From NCBI RefSeq assembly GCF_033845285.1, contig NZ_JAWXCX010000001.1:1379495-1443494 (forward strand): a stretch of DNA of 64,000 nt. Reading direction: 5' to 3'. This stretch comes from Marinococcus sp. PL1-022 (GTDB taxonomy: Bacteria > Bacillota > Bacilli > Bacillales > Marinococcaceae). This document shows positions 3,063-25,811 of this stretch, piece after piece. Position numbers and translations under genes: made by a program. How positions within the stretch are numbered: position 1 is the stretch's first letter; each line of letters starts with the position of its first letter. The notes under the pieces are model-generated. The model worked only from the letters and a program-made list of their open reading frames with translations. It did not search any database and was not told where the DNA came from.

Positions 3063-3686
3063 TTAAGCTTCACTTCTCCGGCGCATGAATAGTGCTGCTC
3101 CGCCAACTGCCAAGGCAGCAATACCTGCCCAGAGTCCGGTCATACCGCCAGTGTCACTGGTGCCGCCCATACCGGTTTGAGGCATTTCCTCCGGCATCAT
3201 GGCTGCCTCCTGTGCTTGTTCATCCAGCTGGCCGCGGATCTCGCCATCCGGGTATTCTTCGGTGTGGAGATTCGCATAAACATCACCTGCGACAAGTCCC
3301 ATGGAGAATTCCTCCCAGGTCATGTCGCCGACCAGGTCATCCTCGGTCAGCGTGCCGGTAGCAACCTCCCCGTCATAATCCATTGGTTCCTCGTTTTCGA
3401 ATAAAAACAACTCGACAGGACCGTCTTCGCCTTCAGCACCACTGTGCAGGTGTCCGGCAACGGCGTTATCCAGATCTTCAGCATGGACCGAATACATGAT
3501 GGACTCGCCGTCTTCGCTCACTTCAAAGTGTGCTTCTCCCATCGCGTCGCTGTCGACGTCCTTGGTTTCCGCCTCTGGCGTTAAGTCCACCATAAATTCA
3601 AGTCCCTCGTGGTCGGCTGAAGCGGTACCGGCAAAGCTGGTGACCGCAAATACGGATGCTAATGGTACAATAACGCGTTTTTTCAT
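3063..3686 (-). CDS. CHRD-domain surface protein with MPQTG sorting signal
   Basis: A secreted protein of 207 residues. Residues 1-24 are a signal peptide ending in GTASA. Residues about 30-155 are a CHRD domain, with the family pattern AGHLHSG and the closing VYANLHTEEYPDGEIRGQL. From residue 168 the C-terminus is a sortase signal: MPQTGMGG, a hydrophobic helix, then RRRSEA. Met replaces the usual Leu of LPxTG, as in the other substrates in this window. The second ATG (3686) is taken as start because the GGGGG ribosome binding site is too close to the first (3692). The role of CHRD domains is not established; the protein is very acidic. It is transcribed away from a sortase gene cluster and is probably anchored by that sortase. 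Confidence 0.88.
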   Translation of the reverse strand: MKKRVIVPLASVFAVTSFAGTASADHEGLEFMVDLTPEAETKDVDSDAMGEAHFEVSEDGESIMYSVHAEDLDNAVAGHLHSGAEGEDGPVELFLFENEEPMDYDGEVATGTLTEDDLVGDMTWEEFSMGLVAGDVYANLHTEEYPDGEIRGQLDEQAQEAAMMPEEMPQTGMGGTSDTGGMTGLWAGIAALAVGGAALFMRRRSEA

Positions 3687-4020
3687 TCTCATTTCCCCCT
3701 TTTGATAATGGAATGGAACAATCGCTGACGTACCAGTCGCGCCCCCTTTGATGAATGCAGACTAAAATTAAGCACCCAATTATATAGACTACGAGCGCTA
3801 AAAGAAAACGGATCACCAATTGATAGAATTTTTTAAAAATTATGTAAATAAGCATTTTCAATACTTGAAATAGTTCAGTGCGCGGGAGTATTAATAAGGA
3901 GAATTTGAAATTCTTGTGGAGAGAATTGTAAGAACCATTTAAAAGATATCGATTAATTGTGATCCAAAACGTTTTTCTTCTCGTTAGCCTGTATGAATAC
4001 AAAATGAGGAGGGTTTTTCC
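3687..4020. promoter_or_regulatory. Divergent intergenic region between two surface-protein genes
   Basis: These 334 AT-rich bases separate the divergent CHRD gene and the first helical-repeat gene, so both promoters must lie here. An AGGAGGG ribosome binding site precedes the plus-strand gene. I could not assign convincing -35/-10 pairs, and no open frame looks genuine. Confidence 0.5.
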
Positions 4021-5403
4021 ATGATTGGTAAAAAATTTATTTTAGGTGCAACAGCGGCTACCCTGATGGTGCCGACAACCGCAATGGCAGCAGACAATGG
4101 CTCCAGCGAGCAGATGCCGATGGCCGATATGCAGGAGATGAAGGACATGTCCGCCGGAGACGTCCGGGCGTCGTTTGACCAGCTGTTATCGGAGCACTTC
4201 GTGTTAGCCGTGCTGTCGATGCAGAAGCAGTATGACGATGCGCCGGATGCCGAGGAAGTTCAAATGAACCTGAACAAGAATGCCGATGACATGCAGATGG
4301 CGATTACATCGCTTTACGGTGAAGAAGCCGGCCAGCAGTTCGGCGATCTGTTCCGGGAGCATAACGAATACACCACGGATATTGTGGAAGCCACCAAAAA
4401 CGACAATGAAGCCGGGCTCGAAGACGCCGAAGCCGAAATTCAAACCTTTGCCGATGAGTTGAGCACGCTGCTCTCGGATGCGACCGGTGGGGAACTGCCG
4501 CAGGAAGCAGCCGAGGAAGCCCTGATCGCCCATGAAGGCGATGTGCAGAGTGCGTTTGATAACTACGTGGCCGAAGATTACCAGGCGGCCTATACGGATT
4601 ACCGGGAAGGTTACGCCCGCATGTTTGACATCGGCGAAACGGTCTCGGACGCGGTCGTAAAAGGCATGCCGGATCAGTTTGACCAGAACACGACCAATAC
4701 CGCCGCAGATGATCTTCGTTCGAACCTGAACATGCTGGCTGGCGAACATTTCAGCCTGGCCGTCCTGGAAATGCAGAAGGGCGTGAACCAGCAGGACGAT
4801 TATGACTTTGTCACCTGGGCCGAGGACGGTAACACGGAAGACTTCCGGGCGGCGATCACCTCCATCTACGGCGAGGAAGCCGGCGTGCAGTTCATGGATA
4901 TCTGGCAGGGCGAGCATATTGATGCCCAGAGCGATATCGTAGCTGCTACACTGGAAGAAGACGATGAAGCTCGTCAGGCCGCTGAAGATGAATTAAAAAT
5001 GTTCTCGGAAGACTTTGGTGCCTTCTTAGGCGGAGCGACGGAGGAAAACCTTCCGACGGAAGCTGCGCAGGATGCCGTATGGATGCATGAAAGCCAGGTA
5101 CTAGACACGTACGATAACTATATGAACGAAGACTATGAAGCCACCTACGATTCCTTCCGGGAAGGCTATGCCTTTATGTTTGGCATCGGCAAGAACCTCG
5201 GAGGCGCAATCTCCACGCAAATGCCGGAGCAGTTCGGAACGGACATGATGATGGAGGACGGCGAAATGATGCCGGCAGAAATGCCGCAAACCGGCATGGG
5301 CGGTACGGCGAATGGCAATAGTCCATGGGCCTGGGTATTCGCGTCTGTCGCGATGACGGCTCTTGCAGGAGCATTCATGTTCCGTAAAAACCTGGCCAAA
5401 TAA
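4021..5403 (+). CDS. Secreted two-repeat helical protein with MPQTG sorting signal
   Basis: A 460-residue acidic surface protein. Residues 1-23 are a signal peptide ending in TAMA. Two homologous units follow, about 47-220 and 231-405, each predicted all-helical. Each unit has DxRxxxxxLxxEH near its start, SxYGEEAGxQF in the middle and a His-containing helix (AHEGDV / MHESQV) towards its end. Conserved His are 59, 114 and 171 in unit 1 and 243, 299 and 356 in unit 2. From residue 421 there is MPQTGMGG, a hydrophobic helix and a short basic tail, a sortase substrate signal. The regularly placed His suggest metal or cofactor binding in a helical bundle; this is inference. Similar Bacillaceae proteins are, as I recall, sometimes labelled copper amine oxidase, but no oxidase domain is visible here. 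The sortase gene follows after 30 bases. Confidence 0.85.
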   Translation: MIGKKFILGATAATLMVPTTAMAADNGSSEQMPMADMQEMKDMSAGDVRASFDQLLSEHFVLAVLSMQKQYDDAPDAEEVQMNLNKNADDMQMAITSLYGEEAGQQFGDLFREHNEYTTDIVEATKNDNEAGLEDAEAEIQTFADELSTLLSDATGGELPQEAAEEALIAHEGDVQSAFDNYVAEDYQAAYTDYREGYARMFDIGETVSDAVVKGMPDQFDQNTTNTAADDLRSNLNMLAGEHFSLAVLEMQKGVNQQDDYDFVTWAEDGNTEDFRAAITSIYGEEAGVQFMDIWQGEHIDAQSDIVAATLEEDDEARQAAEDELKMFSEDFGAFLGGATEENLPTEAAQDAVWMHESQVLDTYDNYMNEDYEATYDSFREGYAFMFGIGKNLGGAISTQMPEQFGTDMMMEDGEMMPAEMPQTGMGGTANGNSPWAWVFASVAMTALAGAFMFRKNLAK

Positions 5404-5433
5404 TCCCACGTAAATAGAAAGGAGAGGGGAACG

Positions 5434-6441
5434 GTGACCAAACGACGAATCAAATTCCTGATACTTGCTGCGATGATGTTTGTGGCCATCGGCCTGGGGA
5501 TTCAATACGCGCAGCAGGCCCTGTTCTCCTCTCCGGCGGAAACCACGGTATTATCCGAGGGAGAGGGCGTGTCGGATCCGGAAGAAAACGAAGAACCGGG
5601 GGAAAGCTCGTCCTCGCAGAAGGTGGAAGAGTTTGTTCAGGTGACAGATAATACCGAAGCGAATGAAAAAACAGAAGAAGCAGAGGAAATGGAGCTGGCC
5701 GCTCCTTCGACGCTTTCGATTCCATCAATTGATGTGGAAGCCGACCTGGAAGGCGTGGGCGTACTGGATAACGGCCAGATGGGCGTACCGGATTCGGCGG
5801 AGGGCGTCGGCTGGTTTGAACCGGGCGTCACCCCGGGAGAACAAGGCAATGCAGTGATGGCCGGCCATGTGGACAGTAAAAGCGGCCCGGCCGTGTTTTT
5901 CGATCTGGAGGACATGAAAGCCGGAGACGATGTGAATGTCACGAATGAGGACGGCCAGGAGCTGACCTTTACGGTGACAAAAGTGGTGAGCTATCCACGG
6001 CAGGATGCACCGATTGAGAATATTTTTGGTGCCAGCGACGGCCGGCACCTGCAGCTGATTACGTGCACCGGCACCTTTAATCAGGAGCAGGGCACGCACG
6101 ATGAACGGCTGGTCGTTTATACCGAGCTCACCAAGGAGAGCGAAGAAGCCCTGATGAACGATGGCGACGAAGCATCGGATCCGCCGCCGTCCCCTGACAA
6201 TGTCTCTCTCCAGGGATCGCTTGTGAAATGGCATGCGGTGCGGGATGAGGACATTGCCGGTTACCGGGTATACCGCCAGGAAGAGGGCGGGGATGATTTC
6301 ACCCGGGTGGCGAGCGTGGATGCACATGAGCGCAAAAGCTACACGGAAACAGAGGAAGGAGCCTTCACGTACCATGTGACGGCTGTCGACACCGAAGGAG
6401 TGGAATCGAAGCCTTCGGAAGACGTATCCATGGAAGAGTAA
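5434..6441 (+). CDS. Class F-type sortase with C-terminal Fn3-like domain
   Basis: A membrane-anchored transpeptidase of 335 residues. A single transmembrane helix spans about 7-28, followed by an acidic linker to residue 85 and a sortase domain to about 230. The triad is visible: His145 in AGHVDS, Cys211 in LITCTG, Arg225 in DERLVV. The GHVDSKSGPAVFF and LITCTG segments are closest to class F sortases. Residues about 248-335 look like one fibronectin type III domain (VKWHAVRDEDIAGYRVYR, YHVTAVDTEG), which is unusual because sortases normally end near the catalytic Arg. The GTG start has a strong AAAGGAGAGG. It lies between two genes for MPxTG proteins, which are its likely substrates. Confidence 0.9.
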   Translation: MTKRRIKFLILAAMMFVAIGLGIQYAQQALFSSPAETTVLSEGEGVSDPEENEEPGESSSSQKVEEFVQVTDNTEANEKTEEAEEMELAAPSTLSIPSIDVEADLEGVGVLDNGQMGVPDSAEGVGWFEPGVTPGEQGNAVMAGHVDSKSGPAVFFDLEDMKAGDDVNVTNEDGQELTFTVTKVVSYPRQDAPIENIFGASDGRHLQLITCTGTFNQEQGTHDERLVVYTELTKESEEALMNDGDEASDPPPSPDNVSLQGSLVKWHAVRDEDIAGYRVYRQEEGGDDFTRVASVDAHERKSYTETEEGAFTYHVTAVDTEGVESKPSEDVSMEE

Positions 6442-6545
6442 AGACAGAGAAAGAACTATAGATCAACGACAGGACGATGAACGTATCAAACGGCATCGTC
6501 TTTGTTGTTCCATCATATGAGTATAGGCACGCACAGGGGGAGGCG

Positions 6546-6743
6546 ATGGCTATCAATGAAAGAAAATGGGGGATTAAAGTAAATAAACAGCCGCGACACA
6601 AAAAATACGCTGACGGCTCTGGAACGAACAGCGATAGCTTTTTACCTTCTGAGGAAAAACAAACCTGCTGTACGCCTCCTGCAGGTATGAAAGAACGAGT
6701 GCTTCAATACGTTTTTGGAGAAACAAGTCTTACGCAGGATTAA
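6546..6743 (+). CDS. Hypothetical small basic protein
   Basis: A possible 65-residue protein between the sortase and the second helical-repeat gene. GGGGGAGG lies three bases before the ATG, closer than ideal. The sequence is hydrophilic and Lys-rich with a CC pair near residue 39, and has no signal peptide or membrane segment. I recognise no family. It may be spurious. Confidence 0.3.
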   Translation: MAINERKWGIKVNKQPRHKKYADGSGTNSDSFLPSEEKQTCCTPPAGMKERVLQYVFGETSLTQD

Positions 6744-6883
6744 CTCTGCAAAGCCTCCGTTTATAACAAAAGTTTATATTTAGAATAATAATCAATAAAT
6801 TCAATAAATTGTAACAAATGATGATCCAATTGCTGATCGATTTCGTTATCTGGGTGTAACAAACCATGAAGGAGGATTATCAC

Positions 6884-8266
6884 ATGAATATGAATATCAA
6901 CTGGAAACGTACGGCGCTGGCACTGCCATTATCTGCAGCTGTCGTGATCCCGACAGCACCGGGAGTGGCATCCGCCGACAGCCACGAAGGCGAAAGTAAT
7001 ACGGAAATGTCCGAAGAAATGATGGCCTCGGTATCGACGCCGGCGGGCGATCTTCGGGCCCAGCTGGATCATTATTTATCTGAGCATGCCTACCTTGCCG
7101 TTACCACGATGCAGAAAGGCGCAGATGGCGCAGAGGATTTTGAAGAATCTGCTGCCGCTCTGGAGGCCAATACGAAAGACCTTTCCAATACGATTGCTTC
7201 GGTTTACGGGGACGAAGCCGGGCAGCAGTTTGAAGAGATGTGGAGCGAGCATATCGGTTATTTCGTTGATTATGTTAACGCGACCGATGCGGGAGACGAA
7301 GCTGCCAAGCAGGAAGCGCTCGACAACCTGAAGGATTACCGCGAGGAATTTTCCCAGTTCCTGGATGATGCGACAAACGGCGGCGTGGACGCTGAGGCTG
7401 CCTCCGAAGGACTGGAAATGCACGTCAATCAGCTGATCGGCTCGTTTGACAGCTACGTGGCTGGAGACTATGAAGAAGCTTATTCGCTGGCCAGTGACGC
7501 GATGGAGCATATGTACGGGGTAAGTGAAAACCTGTCAGTCGCGATTGCGGACCAGTTTCCGGAAAAATATAACAACACCAATCCGGATACGCCGGCTGTC
7601 GATCTGCGCTCTGATATGAACTTCCTGTTTTCTGAGCATGCGGCCCTTGCGGTAACTGCGATGCAAAAAGGCGGTGCAGGCGCGGAGGATTTCGGCGCTG
7701 CAGCGGGCATCCTGAACCAGAATACGCAGGAGCTTTCAGAAGAAATTGAGTCTGTGTACGGCGAAGAAGCCGGACAGCAGTTTGAAGAAATGTGGAGCGA
7801 ACACATCGGCTATTTCGTGGATTATGTAGAAGCGACCGGTGCAGAGGATGAAGCAGCCCAGCAGGAAGCATTGGATAACCTTGATAGCTATCGGATGGAA
7901 TTCTCCAAATTTATGGAAGAAGCGACCGGCGGGGAGCTGCAATCCGATGCTCTGGCGGAAGGCCTGCAAATGCATGTGAACCAATTGATTGGCGCCTTTG
8001 ACAGCTATACTATGGAAGAATATGATATGGCCTATGAAGATGTCCGTGAAGCCTATGGCCATATGTTTGGTGTAGGGGAAGGCGTTTCGGGAGCTATCGT
8101 AGCCCAGTATCCGGAGCAGTTTGAAAGTGAAATGATGCCGGAAGAAATGCCGAAAACCGGCATGGGCGGCACAGCACAGAATGTTAGTCCATGGGGCATC
8201 GCTGCCGGAAGCATGGCGCTTGTGATGGCAGGTATTGCACTCATGAAGCGCCGCAGAGAAGCCTAG
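6884..8266 (+). CDS. Secreted two-repeat helical protein with MPKTG sorting signal
   Basis: A 460-residue paralogue of the protein at 4021. It has a signal peptide ending near GVASA (residue 31), two units of about 175 residues (about 56-225 and 239-410), and a sorting signal from residue 422: MPKTGMGG, a hydrophobic helix, then KRRREA. Each unit keeps the DLRxxxxxxxSEH, YGxEAGQQFEEMWSEH and EMHVNQ motifs, with His at 68, 123, 180 and 252 and equivalents. The core GQQFEEMWSEHIGYFVDY is identical in both units, so this internal duplication is more recent than the one at 4021. The start at 6884 is chosen because AAGGAGG at 6869-6875 would lie inside the reading frame if the upstream ATG at 6866 were used. 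Confidence 0.85.
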   Translation: MNMNINWKRTALALPLSAAVVIPTAPGVASADSHEGESNTEMSEEMMASVSTPAGDLRAQLDHYLSEHAYLAVTTMQKGADGAEDFEESAAALEANTKDLSNTIASVYGDEAGQQFEEMWSEHIGYFVDYVNATDAGDEAAKQEALDNLKDYREEFSQFLDDATNGGVDAEAASEGLEMHVNQLIGSFDSYVAGDYEEAYSLASDAMEHMYGVSENLSVAIADQFPEKYNNTNPDTPAVDLRSDMNFLFSEHAALAVTAMQKGGAGAEDFGAAAGILNQNTQELSEEIESVYGEEAGQQFEEMWSEHIGYFVDYVEATGAEDEAAQQEALDNLDSYRMEFSKFMEEATGGELQSDALAEGLQMHVNQLIGAFDSYTMEEYDMAYEDVREAYGHMFGVGEGVSGAIVAQYPEQFESEMMPEEMPKTGMGGTAQNVSPWGIAAGSMALVMAGIALMKRRREA

Positions 8267-12697: not shown

Positions 12698-15052
12698 ATG
12701 TTGACGAAAAAAGACCAGTTTTATTTATCAGCGCAGAAGAATAACGTGCTGGTTTTTGAATCGGGTATGCAGGAAATGTACTTTTGCGTATATGTACTCG
12801 AAGAAAAATTATTCCGCATCACGCTGACGAAGGAACGCCCGGAAATGGACATACATACGTGGGCGGTAGCCCCCGGGGACACGGAAGTGCCGTTTGAAGG
12901 ACTGAACCGGAATCATCTGACCGATCTTTTTTCGCTGCCGGCTTATGAAGCATCAGAAACGCCGGAGGATGTCACGGTGGAAACCGCATCGCTCAAGCTG
13001 AACATCAACATGGCCAAGCTCCACTGCAGCTGGTATGACAAAACAGGCGGCGCGGACGTGTTAATTGCTGAAGACCGCAGCACCCAGGCCTACGCGTTCC
13101 AGATTGCAGAAAACGCACCGACGGCCCACTATTTAAAGCGAAACGACACGGACCGTTTTTACGGCTTCGGGGAAAAAACGGGCAAGGTTAACAAACACGG
13201 CGACCGCTTCCGGATGCTCAATATTGATGCGATGGGCTATGACGCGGAAAAAACCGATCCACTCTACAAGCATATTCCGTACTATATTACGTACTCCCCG
13301 GAAACCAAAGCGGCTTACGGACTGTATTACGATGACTATAATGAATGCGCTTTCGACATGGGGCGGGAAAAGGACAACTACCACGGAAAATACCGGTATT
13401 TTCAAAGTAATTCGCCGTTTTTGGACTTTTATTTTATTCTTGGCCCGACTGTTGCCGAGGTTACCCGCCGGTTTTCGTGGATGACCGGGCGCCCGGCGCT
13501 GATGCCAAAATGGAGCATTGGCTACTCCGGATCGACGATGACCTACACGGATGAAGAAAAATCGCAGGAGCGGCTGATGAACTTTGTGGCAGATACCGAA
13601 AAGTATGATATCCCTTGCGAGTCCTTTCATCTTTCTTCCGGGTATACCTCGATTAACCATAAACGCTACGTCTTCAACTGGAACTACGATAAGTTCCCGG
13701 ATCCGGTAAAGTTCACCGGGGATTTTCATGCAAGCGGTATTAAAATTATCGCCAACATTAAGCCGAGCCTGCTGATAGATCACCCGAAGCATGAGGAGGT
13801 GCTTGACAACGATCTTATTCTTCTGGATAAAAACGGCCGGCCGCTCCTGCAGCAGTTCTGGGATGACATGGGCGTGTACCTGGATTTCACCAACGAAGAG
13901 ACAATTGACTGGTGGAAGAAAAACGTGAAAACGGAGCTGCTTGCAAACGGCATCGACGCCACCTGGAATGACAACAATGAATTTGAAATCTGGGATCCGG
14001 AGGCGGATGTTCATTTGTTCGGCCGCGGCGGCAAATTCCAGGATTACCGGGCGATTTTCCCGATGCTGATGACCAAGAGTTCCCTGGAAGCACAGCTTGA
14101 ATTCGATGAAGAAAAACGGCCGTATCTGATCAGCCGGGCAGGGAGCGCGGGACTCAGCAGGTACGCCCAGACGTGGACCGGAGACAACTACTCCAACTGG
14201 GAGACGCTCCAGTACAACATTAAAATGGCGATCGGCTTAAGCCTTTCCGGCATCTATAATTTCGGGCATGACACGGGAGGGTTTTCCGGCAACGCACCGG
14301 AGCCGGAGCTGTTTCTGCGCTGGATTCAGAGCAACATCTACTACCCGCGGTTTACGATTCATTCCTGGAACGACGATCAGACAGTCAACGAACCGTGGAT
14401 GTACCCGGAAATTGTAGGTAAGGTATCGGAGACGATTCACTGGCACCAGCAGCTGTCCGGCTACATTTTCTCGCTGCTGCACAAGTCGTCAGCTGACTAC
14501 GAGCCCGTGATCAAGCCGACCTTCTTCGACTTTGGCGAGGATGCAGCGACGCACGCTGAAAACGACGAATTCATGCTCGGCGAAGAGCTGCTCGTCTGCA
14601 CGATCGTGCGTCCGGGTGAGCGTGAGCGCACCGTGTACCTGCCTGAACATCCGCACGGCTGGTACGACATGTATACCGAACAGTGGTACGAGGGAGGACG
14701 TAAGGTGACAGTTCCTGCTCCGCTTGAGTATACGCCGGTGATGGTAAAGGGAGGCAGTCTGCTGCCGGTGGAAAACAAGGCCGAAGGCCGGATCGACATG
14801 TACGCGTATCCGGGCCAAAACGGCGAACGGACGTCGTTTACGTATTACGATGATAACGACAGGCAGCACGATTCTGAAGTGCTTTCCATTACGTGTGCGA
14901 TGACAGCCGATGAAAGCGGCATCTATATTGAAGCCCATCAGGAGGGCGCGTACGACAACGGACTTACATCGATGCAGCTCCAGCTGCCGAAGGATGAAAG
15001 CAGGCAGGTCTTTATCAACGGAGAGGCAGGTGCGTGGTTTTCGTGGAAGTGA
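12698..15052 (+). CDS. GH31 family alpha-glycosidase
   Basis: A 784-residue cytoplasmic glycoside hydrolase without signal peptide. The N-terminal beta-sandwich (about 1-260) includes YGFGEKTG, a family 31 landmark. The catalytic barrel follows; the likely nucleophile is Asp425 in WNDNNE and the acid/base Asp496 in TWTGDN. C-terminal beta domains end the protein. GH31 enzymes cleave alpha-glucosides, alpha-xylosides and related bonds with retention. It is the first gene of an operon with a TRAP transporter and lies beside a complete glucuronate pathway, so a uronate-containing oligosaccharide is a reasonable substrate guess. The subfamily cannot be fixed by eye. A perfect ROK-type operator lies just upstream. 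Confidence 0.9.
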   Translation: MLTKKDQFYLSAQKNNVLVFESGMQEMYFCVYVLEEKLFRITLTKERPEMDIHTWAVAPGDTEVPFEGLNRNHLTDLFSLPAYEASETPEDVTVETASLKLNINMAKLHCSWYDKTGGADVLIAEDRSTQAYAFQIAENAPTAHYLKRNDTDRFYGFGEKTGKVNKHGDRFRMLNIDAMGYDAEKTDPLYKHIPYYITYSPETKAAYGLYYDDYNECAFDMGREKDNYHGKYRYFQSNSPFLDFYFILGPTVAEVTRRFSWMTGRPALMPKWSIGYSGSTMTYTDEEKSQERLMNFVADTEKYDIPCESFHLSSGYTSINHKRYVFNWNYDKFPDPVKFTGDFHASGIKIIANIKPSLLIDHPKHEEVLDNDLILLDKNGRPLLQQFWDDMGVYLDFTNEETIDWWKKNVKTELLANGIDATWNDNNEFEIWDPEADVHLFGRGGKFQDYRAIFPMLMTKSSLEAQLEFDEEKRPYLISRAGSAGLSRYAQTWTGDNYSNWETLQYNIKMAIGLSLSGIYNFGHDTGGFSGNAPEPELFLRWIQSNIYYPRFTIHSWNDDQTVNEPWMYPEIVGKVSETIHWHQQLSGYIFSLLHKSSADYEPVIKPTFFDFGEDAATHAENDEFMLGEELLVCTIVRPGERERTVYLPEHPHGWYDMYTEQWYEGGRKVTVPAPLEYTPVMVKGGSLLPVENKAEGRIDMYAYPGQNGERTSFTYYDDNDRQHDSEVLSITCAMTADESGIYIEAHQEGAYDNGLTSMQLQLPKDESRQVFINGEAGAWFSWK

Positions 15053-15086
15053 GTGTACTGAAAGCTAATTAAAGGAGGGGACCACA

Positions 15087-16076
15087 GTGAAAAAATGGAT
15101 CAGCCTTGTCACGATTATAGCTCTGATTGCTTTAACGGGCTGCCAGAGTGCAAGCGGCGAAGAGGAAAGGACCTTTACGCTCGCACACAACCAGCCGACG
15201 GATCATCCGGTGCACCAGTCGCTTGAACGATTTGCTGAGCTCGTGGAGGAAAAATCAGATGGAGCCATGAGCATTAAAATTTACCCGAACGGAGAGCTTG
15301 GAAGCGAGCGTGAAGTGATTGAAGGAACCCAGGCCGGCGCCGTTGATTTCAGTAAGGTAAGCGGGAGTGCCCTGGAAAGCTTTGAGCCCGCCTATTCGGT
15401 TTTCAGCCTGCCGTATTTGTTTGAAAGCCAGGAAAGCTTTAAGCGTGTCATGAATAACGAGGACGTGACGGACGACATCTATATGGAATCCGCAGATAAA
15501 GGATTCCGCGGCCTGACGTATTACGACGCTGGGATCCGCAATGTTTACACGAAAAGCAGAATGATCGAAACAAGTGAAGACATGAGCGGCTTAAAAACGA
15601 GAGTACAGCCGAGCCAGACGAGCGTGCAGATGATCGAAGCGATGGGGGGCACACCGACGCCGATGAGCTATGGTGAAGTGTATACTGCGCTGCAGTCGGG
15701 CGTTATCGACGCCGCCGAAAACAATGCCACGGCGCTTACGAACAGCAACCACGGGGAAGTGGCGAAAAACTATTTCTACACCGAGCATGCCATTGTTCCC
15801 GACATGCTGATCGCCAATGAAAATATCATGGAAAGCCTGTCCGACAGTGAACGGCAAATCATCGAAGAAGCTGCTGAAGAATCGACCAGCTATCACGAGG
15901 AGCTGTGGAACGAGACGGTGAACGAAGCCAAGGCGACAGCCAAAGAGGAAATGAACGTGGAATTTTATGAAGTGGACAAGCAGTCGTTTATTGATGCAGT
16001 GCAGCCGCTGCATGAAGAGTTCCAAAACGACCCGGACACCTCTGATATTTACAACAAAATAAAGGAGGCCGAGTAG
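15087..16076 (+). CDS. dctP: TRAP transporter substrate-binding lipoprotein (DctP)
   Basis: A 329-residue extracytoplasmic binding protein. The lipobox is LTGC near residue 19, which anchors it to the membrane outer face. The DctP fold is shown by the YPNGELGSEREVIEG segment and by KTRVQPSQTSVQMIEAMGGTPTPM followed by GEVYTALQSGVIDAAE. The Arg in KTRVQ is the usual carboxylate-binding residue, consistent with an acidic sugar as ligand. GTG start with AAAGGAGG. It lies between the GH31 gene and dctQ, one base separating it from dctQ. Confidence 0.93.
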   Translation: MKKWISLVTIIALIALTGCQSASGEEERTFTLAHNQPTDHPVHQSLERFAELVEEKSDGAMSIKIYPNGELGSEREVIEGTQAGAVDFSKVSGSALESFEPAYSVFSLPYLFESQESFKRVMNNEDVTDDIYMESADKGFRGLTYYDAGIRNVYTKSRMIETSEDMSGLKTRVQPSQTSVQMIEAMGGTPTPMSYGEVYTALQSGVIDAAENNATALTNSNHGEVAKNYFYTEHAIVPDMLIANENIMESLSDSERQIIEEAAEESTSYHEELWNETVNEAKATAKEEMNVEFYEVDKQSFIDAVQPLHEEFQNDPDTSDIYNKIKEAE

Positions 16077-16077
16077 G

Positions 16078-16572
16078 ATGCAAAAGGTCAAAATAATTCT
16101 CGACCGTACGCTGTTAATTGTTAATTCCGTATTAATTACCTGCATGGCCCTGCTTTCGATCTGGCAGGTGTTTACCCGGTACGTTCTGGATGCGCCGAGT
16201 ACCACAAGCGAAGAAATTATCCGCTTTATGCTCATCTGGTTCACGCTGCTTACAGCCGCCTACGTATTCGGACAGAAAAAGCATATCGCCATTGTGTTTC
16301 TGATTGAAAAGTTCCGGGAGCGCTCGCAGCGCTTCATCGGGCTTGCCATTAACATTTTATGGGTGTTTTTAGGAATAGTACCAATGATTATCGGCGGCAT
16401 CATTCTGCTGTCGTATACATACTCGGAAACGGCCCCGGCAACGGGCATGTCCATGCTGTTTGTCTACAGCGCTGTGCCGGCCTCGGGTGTATGTATCGTG
16501 CTGTATGCCGTAATTGATATGGTTCGGGGCAGCAGCCGGATCGGCACTGCCGGTGAGGGGGAAAAAGGATGA
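16078..16572 (+). CDS. dctQ: TRAP transporter small permease (DctQ)
   Basis: A 164-residue membrane protein with four hydrophobic segments and the DctQ pattern WQVFTRYVLDAPSTTSEEIIRFMLIWFTLL. It forms the small membrane subunit that pairs with DctM in a sodium-driven uptake system. Its stop overlaps the ATG of dctM by four bases. The context points to uptake of hexuronates or short uronides. Confidence 0.93.
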   Translation: MQKVKIILDRTLLIVNSVLITCMALLSIWQVFTRYVLDAPSTTSEEIIRFMLIWFTLLTAAYVFGQKKHIAIVFLIEKFRERSQRFIGLAINILWVFLGIVPMIIGGIILLSYTYSETAPATGMSMLFVYSAVPASGVCIVLYAVIDMVRGSSRIGTAGEGEKG

Positions 16573-17867
16573 CAGTTACAGCAGGAATTTTATTATTCGC
16601 ATTGCTCGGCATACTGCTCGTGTTCGGGGTGCCGATTGCACTCGCCATACTGCTGAGTGCGATGGTTACCATTTCACTTGTGATTCCGTTTGATGTAAGC
16701 ATCATTATTACCGCGCAGCGGCTTGCGACTGGCGTGGACAATTTCACGATTCTGGCGATTCCGCTGTTTGTGCTTGCAGGCATTATTATGAACAACGGCG
16801 GTATTGCCTTCCGGCTTATTAACCTGGCAAAAATTATTGTCGGCAGACTGCCGGGTTCTCTTGCACATACAAACGTCGTCGGCAACATGCTGTTTGGCTC
16901 CATTTCGGGGTCGAGTGTTGCAGCGGCTGCTGCGATGGGCAAAATCATGACTCCGATGGAAATGAGACAGAAATACTCTCTCAGCTACTCGGCCGCGACC
17001 AATATCGCGTCGGCTCCGGCAGGACTTCTGATCCCGCCAAGCTCCATGCTGATTGTGTATTCTCTTGTCAGCGGCGGCACCTCGATTGCAGCGCTGTTTA
17101 TGGCCGGCTACATTCCGGGGATTTTGTGGGGCCTCTCCGTGATGGCCGTCGCTTATGTGTATGCCAGAAAGCATAAATATCCGGTGTCCGAGAAGGTCAG
17201 CTGGAAGGATAAACTGTTTATCGTATTTGATGCGATTCCGAGTCTGCTTTTGATCATTATCGTAATCGGCGGGATCGTCGCCGGCATTTTTACCGCCACG
17301 GAAGGCGCAGCGGTTGCCGTCATTTATGCGCTTTTGCTGTCACTGATCTACAGACAACTGAAAAAAGAGGAATTTAAAAACATTTTCAAGGAAACCATCG
17401 AAATCACGGGCATGATTCTGCTTTTGATTACAGCATCCTCGCTGTTTTCCCTCGTGATGAGCTATACCGAAATTCCGGCAGGCATCAGCAATGCGCTGCT
17501 TTCGATCAGCGCGAACACGATCGTGATTCTACTGCTTATCAACCTGATCCTGCTTGTAATGGGGACCTTTATGGACATTACGCCGGCCGTGCTCATTTTC
17601 ACGCCGATCTTTTTCCCGGTGGTGACCGAGCTTGGCATCGATCCTGTTCACTTTGGCATTATTATTGCCTTCAACCTTTGTATCGGAAATATCACACCTC
17701 CGGTCGGAAGCGTGCTGTTTGTCGGTACAAGCGTTGCCGATGCGCGACTTGAAAGTGTCATCAAAACACTGATACCTTATTTCATCATTCTGATTGTGAT
17801 GGTGATCGCCGTTACTTTTATTCCTCAGCTCAGCCTGTTTCTGCCTCAGCTGTTTGATCTGATGTAG
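16569..17867 (+). CDS. dctM: TRAP transporter large permease (DctM)
   Basis: A 432-residue integral membrane protein with about twelve hydrophobic segments. It has DctM landmarks: GSISGSSVAAAAAMGKIM, SAPAGLLIPPSSMLIVYSLVSGG, and LCIGNITPPVGSVLFVG near the C-terminus. It is the ion-coupled translocation subunit. It is last in the GH31-dctPQM operon and converges on the ROK repressor gene 22 bases away, with no obvious terminator in the gap. Confidence 0.94.
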   Translation: MTVTAGILLFALLGILLVFGVPIALAILLSAMVTISLVIPFDVSIIITAQRLATGVDNFTILAIPLFVLAGIIMNNGGIAFRLINLAKIIVGRLPGSLAHTNVVGNMLFGSISGSSVAAAAAMGKIMTPMEMRQKYSLSYSAATNIASAPAGLLIPPSSMLIVYSLVSGGTSIAALFMAGYIPGILWGLSVMAVAYVYARKHKYPVSEKVSWKDKLFIVFDAIPSLLLIIIVIGGIVAGIFTATEGAAVAVIYALLLSLIYRQLKKEEFKNIFKETIEITGMILLLITASSLFSLVMSYTEIPAGISNALLSISANTIVILLLINLILLVMGTFMDITPAVLIFTPIFFPVVTELGIDPVHFGIIIAFNLCIGNITPPVGSVLFVGTSVADARLESVIKTLIPYFIILIVMVIAVTFIPQLSLFLPQLFDLM

Positions 17868-17889
17868 TGATGTAGCTATGTGCTTTCTG

Positions 17890-19056
17890 TTACATGCTGA
17901 AGGAGACAGAGTGGTCCACATGGTGAACGCCCAGAAACTTTTTAAACGCAAGCGCCGCGGCTCCTAGTGCACAGGCGTCTTCGTTCAGGCTCGAAATTTT
18001 CAGCTCCTCGTAGTTGTTAAACTTGGACTGCAAAGACTCCTCGACCCGCTCTAAGAGCTCGGGCTTGGAGGCAAACAGCGGGCTGTTGATGATGATGCGC
18101 TCGGGATTAAAGATGTTAATCACATTATTTACGCCAATTGACAGATAGAAAATGTATTCGGCAATCTCTTGCTCAGCATCTATCGTTTCAAGATGTTTAC
18201 TTACCTGCTCCTGGGTATGGAACTCGTCGCCGCTTTCGTAAAGCAGCTTAAAAAATGCTTTATTGGAGGCATAAAGCTCCCAGCAGCCATGGTTGCCGCA
18301 CGGACAGGGCTTGCCATCCGGCTCGATAATCATATGGCCGATTTCACCGGCAAAGCCCTGATGCCCGCGGTAAATGACCGAGTCTTTAACCATGCCGAGC
18401 CCGATGCCGGAGTATAAAGTCAGGCAGAACAGGTCGGACCCATGTTTTGCATAAACGTGTTCGGCATATACGGCCAGGTTGGCGCTGTTGTCTACATGCA
18501 CGGGGGCGTCAAACGCTTCTTCGAGGCGGGTCTTTATGTCCAGATTCACCCACTCCTGTTTTGGGGTATAAACGATCCGGCTGTCGTTGTTCACAATTCC
18601 GTGAATGCCGATACCGATTCCGGCGAGTGGAGCAGCAGAGGCGCCGCTCTGAAAGGCATCGATTTCTGCCTGCAGCTGTTGAATTAATGCTTCAAGCATG
18701 CTTTCAAAATGGTACGTATCCAGATGAAGCTGCTTCTGATGAAGACGACGGCCCTTCAGGTCACAAAAAATGATATTTGTGCTGAGTTCATCAATATCAA
18801 CGCCTATTGTAAAGCCGGCACGCTCGTTCATTTCAATAATAATCGGCTTACGCCCGGGGGTATCGAGAGCTTCGGTTCTCGTTTCAATCACAAGTTCCTG
18901 CTCGAGCAGGTCATTGATCTGTGTGGAGATGGTCGCTTTATTTAAGCCGGTGATTCTCGCCAGTTCGCTCCGGGAAAGGGAAGCGTTTTTCACAATTTCT
19001 TCGAGAATCACCCGACGGTTTAAGTTTCGTATATAGTTCCAGTCGCCTTTATGCAA
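17890..19056 (-). CDS. ROK-family transcriptional repressor (XylR-like)
   Basis: A 388-residue repressor. Residues about 12-65 form a winged helix (LSRSELARITGLNKATISTQINDL). The rest is a sugar-kinase-like ROK domain with GVDIDELSTN near the start and the zinc motif CPCGNHGCWE. The only well-placed start is TTG, with GAGGGA upstream. It lies between the TRAP operon, which it faces tail to tail, and uxaC, from which it diverges. Two operator-like repeats (12630-12664 and 19121-19153) have XylR geometry. It is therefore the likely repressor of both operons and of itself, with a hexuronate or pathway intermediate as inducer. Confidence 0.92.
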   Translation of the reverse strand: MHKGDWNYIRNLNRRVILEEIVKNASLSRSELARITGLNKATISTQINDLLEQELVIETRTEALDTPGRKPIIIEMNERAGFTIGVDIDELSTNIIFCDLKGRRLHQKQLHLDTYHFESMLEALIQQLQAEIDAFQSGASAAPLAGIGIGIHGIVNNDSRIVYTPKQEWVNLDIKTRLEEAFDAPVHVDNSANLAVYAEHVYAKHGSDLFCLTLYSGIGLGMVKDSVIYRGHQGFAGEIGHMIIEPDGKPCPCGNHGCWELYASNKAFFKLLYESGDEFHTQEQVSKHLETIDAEQEIAEYIFYLSIGVNNVINIFNPERIIINSPLFASKPELLERVEESLQSKFNNYEELKISSLNEDACALGAAALAFKKFLGVHHVDHSVSFSM

Positions 19057-19120
19057 GGAGGATCCCTCTTTCTGTACGTACTGCGTATGTTAGTAATATG
19101 AATACTGTGTTAAAAGTATA

Positions 19121-19153
19121 AATTTAATAGTTTGCATAGTAAACAAATTAATT
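19121..19153. promoter_or_regulatory. ROK-type operator before uxaC
   Basis: ACAAATTAATT at 19143-19153 is identical to the right half of the operator at 12651-12661. The left half AGTTTGC (19129-19135) matches five of seven positions of AATTTGT at the same seven-base spacing. It lies in the divergent region between the ROK gene and uxaC, so it can serve both. Confidence 0.7.
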
Positions 19154-19166
19154 AGGAGATGACAAC

Positions 19167-20564
19167 ATGACTGCATTTATTCACGAAGATTTTCTGCTTC
19201 AGTCGCAGGTGGCACGCACGCTGTATCATGATTATGCGAAGCACCTGCCGCTCATCGATTATCACAATCACCTGCCGCCCGGCGAAATTTTAAACGATAA
19301 AAACTTTGATAATCTGGCCCAGATCTGGCTGAGTGGCGATCACTACAAGTGGAGAGCCATGCGGGCAAACGGGATCGCAGAAGAGTATATTACGGGAAAC
19401 AAAAGCGACTACGAAAAGTTTCTGGCATGGGCGGAAACGGTGCCGAATACGCTCGGAAATCCACTGTATCACTGGACGCACCTGGAGCTGTCGTCGTATT
19501 TTGGCATTGATACGCTGTTAAACAAAGACACGGCAGAAGCAATCTGGGAGGAAAGCCGGGAAAAACTGCAGTCGCCGGAGTTTTCCACCCAGTCGCTGCT
19601 TCGAAAGGACAATGTCGTGTTTCTGGGAACGACCGATGACCCGGCGGACGCGTTAACTACGCACGAGCAGCTCGGGCAGAGCCATCTGCCGTTTGACGTG
19701 TCGCCTTCCTACCGGCCGGACCAGGCGCTGCACCTGGAAAAGGACAGCTTTCCGTCCTGGGTGCAGCAGCTGGCAGAGATGACGGGAAAAAGCATTTCCT
19801 CCTACGGGGAGCTTTTAGCGGCATTGGATGAACGAATCGAGGCGTTTGATGCGCTAGGCACCCGCAGCTCCGATCACGGCATGACGGACATGGTATATGA
19901 ACCAGCCAGTGAAGCGGAAGCAGCGGCCGTTTTCCAAAAACGGATAAACGGGGAGGCAGTAACGACGGAGGAAGCAGCCAAATACAAAACGTATACGCTG
20001 CTGCATCTGGCCGAAAGGTACGCGGCAAAGGACTGGGTGATGCAGCTGCACCTGCACCCGCTCCGCAACACAAATACCGCAATGCTTCAGAGGCTTGGCG
20101 GAGACTCGGGATTTGATGCGATCCATGACCAGCTGCCCGCCCGGCCGCTTGCTGCGTTTCTCGATCAGCTTGAACAAAACGGTGCTCTCCCCAAAACGGT
20201 GCTGTACAGCGTAAACGCCAATAACAACAATACGCTTGCGGCGATTGCCGGCAGCTTCCAGAACAGCGAAATTCCCGGCAAGGTGCAGGTAGGCACCGCC
20301 TGGTGGTTCAATGACCACATTGACGGCATGGAAAACCAGATGAAGTCTCTTGCCAGCATTGGCCTGATCAGTAATTTCATCGGCATGCTGACCGATTCAA
20401 GAAGCTTTTTGTCATTTTCGAGACACGAATATTTCCGGCGTATTCTCTGCAATCTGATTGGTACATGGGTGGAGGAAGGAAAAGCGCCGTATGACTTGAA
20501 GCTGTTAAGTACGTACGTCGAAAATATCTGCTATTACAACGCGAAAAAATATTTTTCAATTTAA
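19167..20564 (+). CDS. uxaC: Glucuronate isomerase
   Basis: A 465-residue enzyme of the amidohydrolase-like UxaC family. The metal-site segment LIDYHNHLPPGEI is near residue 30, and WRAMRANGI, LHLHPLRNTN and GTAWWFNDHIDGMENQM are characteristic. It isomerises D-glucuronate to D-fructuronate and D-galacturonate to D-tagaturonate. It is first in a five-gene operon (uxaC, uxuA, reductase, aldolase, kinase) with spacings of 3-14 bases. GGAGA precedes the ATG, and a ROK operator lies directly upstream. Confidence 0.95.
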   Translation: MTAFIHEDFLLQSQVARTLYHDYAKHLPLIDYHNHLPPGEILNDKNFDNLAQIWLSGDHYKWRAMRANGIAEEYITGNKSDYEKFLAWAETVPNTLGNPLYHWTHLELSSYFGIDTLLNKDTAEAIWEESREKLQSPEFSTQSLLRKDNVVFLGTTDDPADALTTHEQLGQSHLPFDVSPSYRPDQALHLEKDSFPSWVQQLAEMTGKSISSYGELLAALDERIEAFDALGTRSSDHGMTDMVYEPASEAEAAAVFQKRINGEAVTTEEAAKYKTYTLLHLAERYAAKDWVMQLHLHPLRNTNTAMLQRLGGDSGFDAIHDQLPARPLAAFLDQLEQNGALPKTVLYSVNANNNNTLAAIAGSFQNSEIPGKVQVGTAWWFNDHIDGMENQMKSLASIGLISNFIGMLTDSRSFLSFSRHEYFRRILCNLIGTWVEEGKAPYDLKLLSTYVENICYYNAKKYFSI

Positions 20565-20578
20565 AGGAGGAGCAGGCA

Positions 20579-21616
20579 ATGGAGATGAGCTTTCGCTGGT
20601 ACGGGACCGAAGACCCCGTCAAGCTTGAACAAATTAAACAGATTCCCGCGATGAAGGGAATCGTATCTGCTATCTATGACCTGCCGCCGGGCGAAACATG
20701 GCCGCAGGAGACCATCAGGGGCATGAAAACCGAAATTGAGCAGCGCGGGCTCGTGTGGAACGTAGTGGAAAGCGTACCGGTGCACGAGGATATTAAAATG
20801 GGCAAGAGCACAAGAGACAGCTGGATTGAGAAGTATCAGGAAACGATCCGAAACCTCTCCCGGGAAGGCATTAAGACCATCTGCTACAACTTCATGCCGG
20901 TATTTGACTGGACCCGCTCCAAGCTTGACGCGCCGCTTCCGGACGGATCGCATTCACTTATGTATGATGAGGAGCTGATTCAGCAGATTGATCCGCTCGA
21001 CGGAAGCTTGACGCTTCCCGGATGGGATCTGTCCTACCAGAAGGACGACCTGCGGGTCATCATGGATGAATATAAAGAAATATCGAAAGAGGACCTGATG
21101 GAGAACCTGATTTACTTTCTGGAGCGGATTATTCCAGTCGCAGAGGAAGAGGATGTGCTGATGGCGATCCATCCCGACGATCCGCCCTGGGACATTTTCG
21201 GCCTGCCGCGTATTATCACAAATGAAGCCAACGTTACGGCCATGCTGAAGCGGGTCAACAGCAGGCACAACGGGATTACCTTCTGCACCGGCTCCTACGG
21301 CGCGGACCGGAGCAACGATTTAATCGGCATGATTGAACATATGAAGGACCGCATTCATTTTGTGCACGCCAGAAACGTGCGGTGGACAAGCGAAAAATCG
21401 TTTCAGGAAACGTCGCATTCCGTGCACGACGGCTCGCTCGATATGGTCGGCATCATGCAGAAGCTGATTGAGGTGGGCTACGAAGGCCCGATCCGCCCGG
21501 ATCACGGACGGATGATCTGGGGCGAAGAAGGCCGGCCGGGCTACGGGTTGTACGACCGGGCACTCGGCGCGGTATATCTTAACGGCATTATCGATGCTGT
21601 GCAGGAGAGGAGATAA
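20579..21616 (+). CDS. uxuA: Mannonate dehydratase
   Basis: A 345-residue TIM-barrel enzyme that dehydrates D-mannonate to 2-keto-3-deoxygluconate. Family markers are MSFRWYG at the start, CYNFMPVFDW, MAIHPDDPPW, FCTGSYGA and FVHARNVR. AAAGGAGGAG lies before the ATG, and the gene follows uxaC by 14 bases. The set of uxaC, uxuA and the following reductase completes the standard glucuronate route. Confidence 0.95.
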   Translation: MEMSFRWYGTEDPVKLEQIKQIPAMKGIVSAIYDLPPGETWPQETIRGMKTEIEQRGLVWNVVESVPVHEDIKMGKSTRDSWIEKYQETIRNLSREGIKTICYNFMPVFDWTRSKLDAPLPDGSHSLMYDEELIQQIDPLDGSLTLPGWDLSYQKDDLRVIMDEYKEISKEDLMENLIYFLERIIPVAEEEDVLMAIHPDDPPWDIFGLPRIITNEANVTAMLKRVNSRHNGITFCTGSYGADRSNDLIGMIEHMKDRIHFVHARNVRWTSEKSFQETSHSVHDGSLDMVGIMQKLIEVGYEGPIRPDHGRMIWGEEGRPGYGLYDRALGAVYLNGIIDAVQERR

Positions 21617-21619
21617 ACG

Positions 21620-22465: not shown

Positions 22466-22476
22466 AGGAGAAAACG

Positions 22477-23106: not shown

Positions 23107-23109
23107 GCG

Positions 23110-24373: not shown

Positions 24374-25210
24374 ATGAAGAAGCTTGCTGGATCCATGTTA
24401 ACTGGTGCGCTGGTGTTTAGTTTCGCTGGGGGAGGCACAGCATTGGCCGACAGTCACGATACGGAGGGCGGTGCATCGGAAGACAGCGGGATGGTAAGGA
24501 TTGTACACGCCTCTCCTGATGCACCCGAGGTTGATGTGTACGTTGATGGAGAGGCTGTAGTCGAAGGGGCGGCCTTCAAGGATGCAACTGATTATATGGA
24601 AGTACCGGAAGGGGAACGTGAGGTAGAAATATTTGCCGCAGGTGAAGAAGGCGAAGGAGAGCCTGTGCTTTCAGGAACACTTGATGTGGAAGAGGGCGAA
24701 GCGTATACAGCTGCAGCCATAAACACGCTCGACGACATTGAGCTGAGCGTGCTAGAGGACAATCAGGAAGCAGCAGAAGGAATGGCGAATATCAGAGTAG
24801 CCCACTTCTCTCCTGACGCTCCAAATGTTGATGTCGCGGTAACAGACGGAGATATTTTGTTTGAAGATGCTCCGTTCACCGGAGTAACGGACTATATGGA
24901 AGTGGAAGCCGGATCCTATGACCTGGAAGTGCGGCCGACTGGCACCGAGGACGTAGTACTTGATCTGGCCGGTACGGAGCTTGAGGAAGGCATGAATTAT
25001 TCTGTACTTGCTGTAGGCTTTGCAGAAGGAGATCCTGAGCTTGATGCTATTATACTGGCAGCCCCTTCCAGTGAAAGTATGCCATCTGAAATGCCGCAGA
25101 CTGGTGCAGCCGGAACAGATAATACGATGATGTACGTATTGGCTGGCCTGTTGGCAGCTGGTCTTGGGGCAGGATACTATGCACGCCGTCGCGCGGGCGC
25201 TTCTTCATAG
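24374..25210 (+). CDS. DUF4397 surface protein with MPQTG sorting signal
   Basis: A 278-residue acidic secreted protein. Residues 1-25 are a signal peptide ending in TALA. Two DUF4397 repeats follow, about 40-125 and 136-225, each opening with (R)(I/V)xH(A/F)SPDAPxVDV and containing TDYMEV. From residue 240 there is MPQTGAAG, a hydrophobic helix and a basic tail. The next gene is a sortase whose start overlaps this gene by 32 bases, so the two are an enzyme and its dedicated substrate. The biological role of DUF4397 domains is not established. Confidence 0.9.
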   Translation: MKKLAGSMLTGALVFSFAGGGTALADSHDTEGGASEDSGMVRIVHASPDAPEVDVYVDGEAVVEGAAFKDATDYMEVPEGEREVEIFAAGEEGEGEPVLSGTLDVEEGEAYTAAAINTLDDIELSVLEDNQEAAEGMANIRVAHFSPDAPNVDVAVTDGDILFEDAPFTGVTDYMEVEAGSYDLEVRPTGTEDVVLDLAGTELEEGMNYSVLAVGFAEGDPELDAIILAAPSSESMPSEMPQTGAAGTDNTMMYVLAGLLAAGLGAGYYARRRAGASS

Positions 25211-25811
25211 CATTCTCTTCGCTGTCCTGATTCTTTTTTTAACCGGAAGCTCTGAAGAATTCACGGAAGCGGAAACAGCTTATTCGGAAGCGTCAATAGA
25301 AGGGGCAGAAGCTCCGGAGATCGGGAAGCGGACAGAGACACAAACAGCAGCTTTATCTCGAGAGTCGATTTCACCGTCAGCCATCAGCATAAGCTCGATT
25401 GGTGTGGAAGCGGCGGTGGATGATATGGGATATACGGAAAACGGGGGAATGGAAGTGCCCGATAACGGGGAGGATACCGGCTGGTTCTCGCCGGGATTCA
25501 AGCCGGGGCAGCAGGGGAATGCGGTCATCGCAGGACATGTGAATGACCGCTCCGGTCCTGCTGTGTTTTACCATCTGGATAAACTCGAGCAGGGAGATTT
25601 GATTGAAGTAACCGGTGAGTCCGGGGAAACGATTACTTTTGAAATGAAATCCGCTGCATCTTATCCGTATGACGATGCCCCGATTCAGCAGATTTTCGGA
25701 GCATCGAGCGAGCGTTCGCTGCAGTTGATCACATGTACCGGAGAGTTTGACAACGATGCCGGTACTCACAGGCAAAGACTGGTGGTAACCGCTTCTGTTG
25801 TGGAAGAGTAA
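25179..25811 (+). CDS. Class F-type sortase, short form
   Basis: A 210-residue membrane-anchored sortase. An N-terminal transmembrane helix (about 8-24) is followed by an acidic linker and the catalytic domain. The triad is His120 in AGHVND, Cys186 in LITCTG and Arg200 in RQRLVV. It is homologous to the catalytic part of the sortase at 5434 but lacks the Fn3-like tail. The ATG at 25179 has GGGGCAGGA upstream and lies inside the substrate gene; a TTG at 25164 is an alternative. Confidence 0.9.
   Translation: MHAVARALLHSILFAVLILFLTGSSEEFTEAETAYSEASIEGAEAPEIGKRTETQTAALSRESISPSAISISSIGVEAAVDDMGYTENGGMEVPDNGEDTGWFSPGFKPGQQGNAVIAGHVNDRSGPAVFYHLDKLEQGDLIEVTGESGETITFEMKSAASYPYDDAPIQQIFGASSERSLQLITCTGEFDNDAGTHRQRLVVTASVVEE

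Follow-up and report, generated by a model that had tools for sequence, protein, structure and literature searches.

A probable class F-type sortase system with MPxTG-tagged proteins

We analysed a window of 64,000 nucleotides (the whole stretch, positions 1,379,495 to 1,443,494 of contig NZ_JAWXCX010000001.1) from Marinococcus sp. PL1-022, a salt-loving bacterium of the Bacillales. The window very probably encodes a class F-type sortase system. Its two enzymes, F1 (which bears an FN3-like domain) and F2, would be anchored in the membrane, recognise secreted proteins that end in an MPxTG signal, cut them and join them to the cell envelope. Judged by sequence comparison, this class F-type signal is real and widespread across the order, and in Bacillales its first position (P4) is almost always Met. 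The initial annotation had described a dedicated surface system; a class F-type system with MPxTG tags was indeed found, but it was not peculiar to the window.

Four secreted open reading frames (ORFs) ended, in the tail alignment, in EMP[QK]TG[MA][GA]GT followed by a hydrophobic helix and a basic tail, as annotated; their signal-like N-terminal segments were judged by eye. Met was present at P4 in all four, again as annotated, and the canonical Leu in none. These candidate substrates were a CHRD-domain protein, two helical repeat proteins and a DUF4397 protein (Table 1). All four ORFs were found where the initial annotation had placed them, although the first gene extends from 3063 to 3692 on the minus strand and position 6884 is an in-frame ATG inside the ORF at 6866-8266. 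As a DNA pattern, MPxTG was observed at six sites of the window, versus 0.51 expected from shuffles, and four of the six were the substrate motifs. The first helical gene is separated by 30 bases from the downstream sortase F1 gene, and proteins resembling its product occupy the matching place in many named loci. The DUF4397 gene overlaps that of sortase F2, whose likelier start is the ATG at 25179, overlapping the DUF4397 stop.

Sortases F1 and F2 were 42% identical and both exceeded the cut-off of the Pfam Sortase family (PF04203). Class F was the top-scoring sortase model for both, at scores under its curated cut-off; for F1, the class F model NF033748 reached 150.8 bits, versus 46.6 for class E, 38.3 for GN, 37.4 and 34.3 for class D, and 23.9 for class C. 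The annotated pair of adjoining class F-type sortases was thus borne out as to best model and position, directly downstream of two candidate substrates, but not as to the model's own cut-off. The label "class F sortase" is carried at NCBI by four Bacillales plasmid relatives (H1-H3, H27).

Met at P4 and the extent of the signal

In about 10 kb around each of 80 named class F loci, all 67 filtered xPxTG signals were Met-first (the filter required Pro at the second position). Filtered signals were absent from 21 of the 80 loci; MPxTG was seen in five of these with a looser filter and in two in a shortened frame, and 14 showed none. After de-duplication, 111 loci had a labelled neighbour, which was Met-first in 100 (34 rows were unlabelled), and 89 of the 91 unique tails of Bacillota neighbours had Met. 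Among 51 representative tails, less than 50% identical past the motif, 49 had Met, one had Leu and one had Asp, the last in a 111-amino-acid ORF that looks spurious; this set was compiled without L268, L269, L283 and L295, which are Leu- or Val-first and fall at the group's margin or beyond it, and without L279, which failed the filter. In these tail counts P4 was free and other shapes, such as LAxTG, escape; Pro at P3, Thr at P1 and Gly at P1' are constant by construction, being filter requirements. Pro was present at P7 in 44 of the 51 tails, and Gly at P3' and P4' in 49 and 46, respectively. The annotated EMP(Q/K)TG was therefore correct but short of the fuller consensus, MP[ES]EMPxTG[MLF]GG, which was common to three unrelated substrate families (helical repeat, DUF4397 and CHRD).

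Class F matches were found in 14 of 29 genomes of the family, 183 of 397 of the order, and 11 of 398 sampled across the phylum, four of these 11 belonging to the host's own order. The MPxTG-tail profile (A4) matched 176 of the 397 order genomes, namely 174 of the 183 with a class F match versus 2 of the 214 without; sortase alone was found in nine and neither in 212 (Fisher p about 1e-98, uncorrected for relatedness). The nine sortase-only genomes included three with sub-threshold MPxTG tails (L275, L277, L280) and one each with LPVTG (L276), VPKTG (L283) and IPKTG (L279, in a frame ending just past the motif); no tail was seen in L278, L281 or L282, and the L278 sortase holds an internal stop. 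These sequence counts indicate that an MPxTG ending is the usual tag of class F-type sortases in Bacillales. The nearest named locus among the matches listed, from which very near records may be omitted, was that of Marinococcus halophilus (98% identity).

The LPXTG profile was also run over 16 class F genomes; it matched at 34 places in 14 of them, and 30 loci were analysed, 23 with a readable motif and 7 without. When the signals were grouped by their motif and not by sortase, the three in which Gly-Gly or a near form came after TG all had Met, and all five LPQTG signals without Gly-Gly had Leu; the latter came from three genomes, all of which also matched the MPxTG profile. The 15 TA-type signals comprised nine with Leu and six with Met, three of these Met being MA[DE]TA. 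Leu-first and Met-first TG signals thus coexist and differ in what comes after. The annotated view that Met is no coincidence but accompanies class F-type sortases agreed with this contrast, and chance in one genome was rejected as an explanation on the 67/67 named signals, the 174/183 co-occurrence and the 49/51 tails.

It is also most improbable that the tails are mere transmembrane anchors, keeping MPxTG by descent and undergoing no processing. The helical proteins are homologous within and between genomes, as such descent would imply, and cleavage at MPxTG is itself a prediction; however, P2 and the hydrophobic stretch change whereas P4 remains Met, the signal is borne by three unrelated families, and it tracks the sortase.

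Signals and sortases in the host genome

Three sortase-domain matches were found in the 3.2-Mb genome (three contigs): F1, F2 and a third, at C1:2956858, which passed both the class D model (186.8, cut-off 165) and the LPxTATN-specific class D model (223.4, cut-off 140). The genome sites examined comprised 35 MPxTG and 54 [LF]P[KNQHED]TG pattern sites (control for the latter, 38) and 27 TIGR01167, 12 NF058670 and 25 PF00746 matches, 29 pattern sites without a locus being covered by the fetched stretches. The raw MPxTG pattern hardly exceeded its reversed control (29 sites), so that the signal lies in where the motif stands and what surrounds it, not in the bare pattern. When a C-terminal position, a hydrophobic segment and a basic end were required, only the four window proteins were left as secreted, anchored MPxTG proteins; a further filter match (L009) was rejected as an internal MPITG of an apparent multi-pass membrane protein. 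No C-terminal LPxTG was found in the genome, by pattern and profiles for x = K, N, Q, H, E or D and by profiles only for other x. The initial annotation had named a genome of mostly LPxTG substrates as the finding that would speak against it, and the count was four MPxTG and no C-terminal LPxTG.

The other C-terminal signals of the genome were MPETASAQP, MPETATNQP, LPVTATNTL, LPDTSTNTI and LPETASHAP, a class D-type set of five xPxT[AS] signals, all with Ala or Ser at P1' and Gly-Gly just ahead of the motif. The annotated tie between Met and the class F-type set held for four of its four signals, but Met was also observed in two of these five, the other three having Leu; P1' (Gly versus Ala/Ser) and the surroundings, not P4, therefore divide the two sets here. 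The class D sortase gene lies directly downstream of a gene for a DUF6612 protein ending in MPETASAQP (L001, C1:2955358-2958726).

We consider it very unlikely that this class D sortase, and not the F1/F2 pair, anchors the MPxTG proteins. Such a route could draw on the two Met-first class D-type signals and on a CHRD-like protein (identified by eye) of a relative, L358, which ends in the class D-type signal MPNTASN. Yet the enzyme passes the LPxTATN-specific model, all five of its candidate signals have Ala or Ser at P1' and are preceded by Gly-Gly, and the MPxTG profile matched only the 2 of 214 genomes given above when no class F match was present. The L358 protein hints that the same cargo family can change its sortase route.

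Proposed working and points against it

The system would most likely work by the usual sortase chemistry, applied to a signal specific to the lineage. F1 and F2 would recognise MP[ES]EMPxTG[MLF]GG at the C-terminus of secreted proteins, presumably cleave the Thr-Gly bond, and attach the substrate to the envelope. F1 most likely acts on the helical-repeat proteins beside it, and F2 on the DUF4397 protein, whose stop codon lies within the F2 frame; either may act on the CHRD protein.

Several observations weigh against a class F-type system defined by MPxTG. The scores of F1 and F2 lie under the curated NF033748 cut-off of 166, which was reached in none of the 397 order genomes, nor in any genome searched. 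Tails were matched in two genomes without a class F match at threshold, one of which has a weak 27-bit match, and no substrate was seen in 14 of the 80 named loci, so that adjacency is not universal. Neighbours of class F-type sortases were Leu-first in L276 (LPVTG, same order), L295 (LPKTG, same phylum) and Thermomicrobium (LPATG, L268), and Val- or Ile-first in L269 (VPRTG), L283 and L279. Finally, Cutibacterium acnes SrtF, the first class F enzyme to be characterised, is said in the accessible part of PMC13257024 to take LPXTG.

The putative P4 pocket

The P4 Leu pocket of Streptococcus pyogenes SrtA comprises V186, V191, V193, V206 and I218, according to the accessible part of PMC9520033. 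In a weak sequence alignment to a class A chain (7s54, its numbering fitted by our own count), the F1 counterparts would be Y187, I194, N196 or I197, I209 and V227, and A192-P193 would form a two-residue insertion next to the predicted pocket. P4 would be read by a pocket walled by the beta6/beta7 loop (Table 1).

Residue 192 was A, S or G in 99 of 100 sortases with a Met-first neighbour, and residue 194 was I, L, V or M in 99 of 100. In actinobacterial sortases, residue 192 was F in 22 of 24 and residue 194 was T, D, A, Q or S in all 24. The residue table and the class F domain tree were made without near-copies, L240 and L283-L292 (no sortase parsed) and L299-L302 (weak matches); the tree, built by a quick method from few columns with a very long outgroup branch, was used solely for label clustering. 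The L276 sortase, beside LPVTG, had the commonest Met-group state at all nine tabulated positions, including A192 and I194; that of L295 (LPKTG) had A192 and A194, and that of Thermomicrobium (LPATG) had Ala192 and Val194. Since L276 shares the residues of the Met-neighbour sortases, the loop does not distinguish Met from Leu, and a loop change was rejected as the cause of that difference; in these alignments it is the two phyla that the loop separates.

The initial annotation had proposed a pocket altered to accept Met in the first position. An altered pocket in F1 and F2 is plausible from the sequences, and a preference for Met over Leu at P4 is possible, though we lean somewhat against it. 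It would fit the constancy of Met in dissimilar tails, the Leu of the five LPQTG tails without Gly-Gly in class F genomes, and the difference at residues 192 and 194 between Met-neighbour and actinobacterial sortases. However, this last contrast is confounded with ancestry, which alone could explain it, as it amounts to essentially one Bacillales-Actinobacteria split; the residue mapping comes from the weak alignment; and L276 and Thermomicrobium pair Leu-first signals with loop residues like those beside Met. In its annotated form the proposal was not supported, given L276 and the two Met-first signals of class D type.

Actinobacterial class F neighbours and a longer signal

A tblastn search with the F1 sortase region gave 36 plasmid records, of which 28 were analysed, with 24 actinobacterial loci. 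An anchored ORF lay just upstream of the sortase in 21 of the 24, and 20 of these ORFs were distinct. Their signals resembled xPxGGVx[TA]G instead of MPxTG, and P-x-[GN]-x-x-x-[TA]-G stood ahead of the helix in 19 of the 20, against a mean of 0.8 and a maximum of 6 in 1000 shuffles (the pattern was chosen after viewing). Pro was present at P7 in 19 of the 20; by hand count, Gly stood at P4 in 14, Val at P3 in 14, Gly at P3' in 14, and Gly-Gly at P3'-P4' in 9; P4 was Gly, His, Ser, Lys or Ala. The labels of these signals, those of the exceptions among the 111 de-duplicated loci and in the residue table, and the Gly counts past the motif were made by eye, and L306 holds a second possible motif closer to the helix. 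Two Arthrobacter CHRD proteins, both class F neighbours, ended in MPSGGADTG and MPAGGADTG; further examples were MPNGGVETG, MPAGGVETG and VPKGHPETG. The GVDTG sorting-domain model NF058571, applied to eight actinobacterial neighbours, scored two over the cut-off and two just below, and did not match four. In Arthrobacter agilis (L264 6926-8453), the CHRD-class F sortase pair lies among copper and metal genes (a copper ATPase, CopC and a four-helix copper-binding protein).

Tentatively, class F sortases might read a signal of about nine to eleven residues shared across phyla (P7 Pro; P5 Gly or acidic; P1 Thr or Ala; P1' Gly; P3' frequently Gly). Within it, P4-P3 would be a lineage code, Met-Pro in Bacillales and mostly Gly-Val in Actinobacteria, set by loop residues 192 and 194. 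We hold this to be rather doubtful, the more so as Gly-Gly past the motif is present in only 9 of the 20 actinobacterial signals.

Relation to known sorting systems

The window system resembles actinobacterial class F (NF033748) in its best sortase model, in a substrate-like gene directly upstream (21/24), in CHRD neighbours in the two Arthrobacter loci, and in Pro at P7 (19/20), Gly at P1' and, in many cases, Gly at P3' (14/20). In contrast, the actinobacterial signals are mostly G-V/A-x-[T/A]-G, with two HPETG, their loops have Phe192 and Thr, Asp or Ala194, and the Bacillales members score under the curated NF033748 cut-off. The window tails matched NF058571 at 26.0, 23.5, 20.4 and 16.8 bits, none reaching the cut-off of 29, and 26 of 31 helical proteins matched at E <= 0.1; that model, however, is named for GVDTG, not MPxTG.

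With class A sortases and LPxTG (TIGR01167, PF00746), the system shares the sortase fold and a motif, hydrophobic stretch and basic tail, but Leu stands at P4 there. As proteins, two window tails scored 13.0 and 14.8 with TIGR01167 (cut-off 15.9), and two scored 18.7 and 15.6 with PF00746 (cut-off 20), all below. In the genome search, TIGR01167 gave 18.6 and 16.2, over the cut-off, and 12.3, below it, and PF00746 gave 22.6 for the second helical protein, over the cut-off, and 18.0, below it. Class D and LPxTATN (NF058671, NF058670) occur in the same genome with candidate signals that include Met-first ones, but with Ala or Ser at P1' and a separate sortase gene passing its own model.

In the accessible part of PMC13251363, a 2026 paper, the physiological roles of class F sortases are stated to be unknown, the deletion of four class F genes gave no phenotype, and substrates were sought via LPXTG, NPXTG, SPXTG, PPXTG, LPXTA and LAXTG. 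In the open-access literature, as far as its searchable text extends, no paper turned up that describes MPxTG as the signal of class F or mentions MPXTG with a sortase; MPQTG turned up in one Lactobacillus genome paper, and other MPxTG spellings gave an off-topic match only. The same literature yielded no link between the CHRD domain and sortases and no "processed acidic surface protein", and GVDTG and GVETG were absent from the matches listed. A near-fixed Bacillales signal (MPxTG with Gly-Gly), a distinct actinobacterial one and the frequent position upstream of a sortase name candidate substrates, whose pairing is testable. The extended cross-phylum signal, if true, would identify what this little-known sortase class, of reportedly unknown physiological role, takes as substrates. 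Should Met-first recognition prove distinct from that of LPxTG, the enzyme could also serve as an orthogonal peptide ligase.

Protein architecture and other genes of the window

The structure model of F1 (predicted local distance difference test, pLDDT, 82) showed an N-terminal helix and a sortase barrel, followed at the C-terminus by a domain of some 80 residues that is rich in beta structure. Its sortase part matched the folds of class A, C, D and E sortases (best E 5.4e-9), and the roles of H145, C211 and R225 were assigned via alignment to class A. An extension of 104-122 amino acids past the TCTG motif was present in 43 of 45 parsed relatives (shorter in L192 and L216), and the F1 type of extension, with the pattern YRVY...HERKS...YVTAVD...ESxPS, was conserved across many Bacillales. 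The name FN3-like is tentative, because Pfam fn3 matched only 1 of 28 members (0.003). To our knowledge, such a domain is unusual on a sortase.

Table 1. Positions of the sortases, candidate substrates and motifs in the window.
Feature	Position	Strand	Basis
CHRD-domain secreted protein, candidate substrate, 209 amino acids, tail EMPQTGMGGT	3063..3692	-	ORF listing; Pfam CHRD E 3.4e-23
MPQTG motif of CHRD protein	3171..3185	-	DNA pattern search
First two-repeat all-helical secreted protein, candidate substrate, tail EMPQTGMGGT	4021..5403	+	ORF listing
MPQTG motif of first helical protein	5281..5295	+	DNA pattern search
Sortase F1, class F-type, C-terminal FN3-like domain	5434..6441	+	Pfam Sortase (PF04203) E 2.2e-24; NF033748 150.8 bits (cut-off 166)
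Catalytic His145 of F1	5866..5868	+	Invariant in alignments A3 and A5
Beta6/beta7 loop of F1, residues 187-199 (YPRQDAPIENIFG), putative P4 pocket wall	5992..6030	+	Alignment to 7s54; pocket residues from PMC9520033 (accessible part)
C211 of F1	6064-6066	+	Invariant in alignments A3 and A5
R225 of F1	6106-6108	+	Invariant in alignments A3 and A5
FN3-like C-terminal domain of F1 (tentative)	6190..6432	+	Beta-rich model segment; conserved extension
Second two-repeat helical secreted protein, candidate substrate, tail EMPKTGMGGT	6866..8266	+	ORF listing; 38% identical to 4021-5403
MPKTG motif of second helical protein	8147..8161	+	DNA pattern search
DUF4397 (two stretches) secreted protein, candidate substrate, tail EMPQTGAAGT	24374..25210	+	Pfam DUF4397 E 2.4e-56
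MPQTG motif of DUF4397 protein	25091..25105	+	DNA pattern search
Sortase F2, class F-type, short form without FN3	25164..25811	+	Pfam Sortase E 2.2e-22; NF033748 135.9 bits (cut-off 166)

No Pfam family was found over its cut-off in the two helical proteins. The first was modelled with a pLDDT of 86; the PDB fold search with this model was empty at E <= 0.001, and a known fold was rejected. In 31 aligned members, an invariant Glu-His, His, His set was observed in each repeat (E58, H59, H114 and H171 in repeat 1; E242, H243, H299 and H356 in repeat 2). From these residues, the helical repeat proteins are a candidate family of metal- or haem-binding surface proteins.

Between sortase F1 and the second helical gene, an 88-amino-acid ORF (6477-6743) had no Pfam match at E <= 1. 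The two sortase loci are separated by what appears from sequence to be a sugar-acid (hexuronate-like) utilisation cluster (12698-24114), whose genes we take to encode a GH31-like enzyme, a TRAP transporter, uronate isomerase, mannonate dehydratase, KDPG aldolase and KDG kinase.

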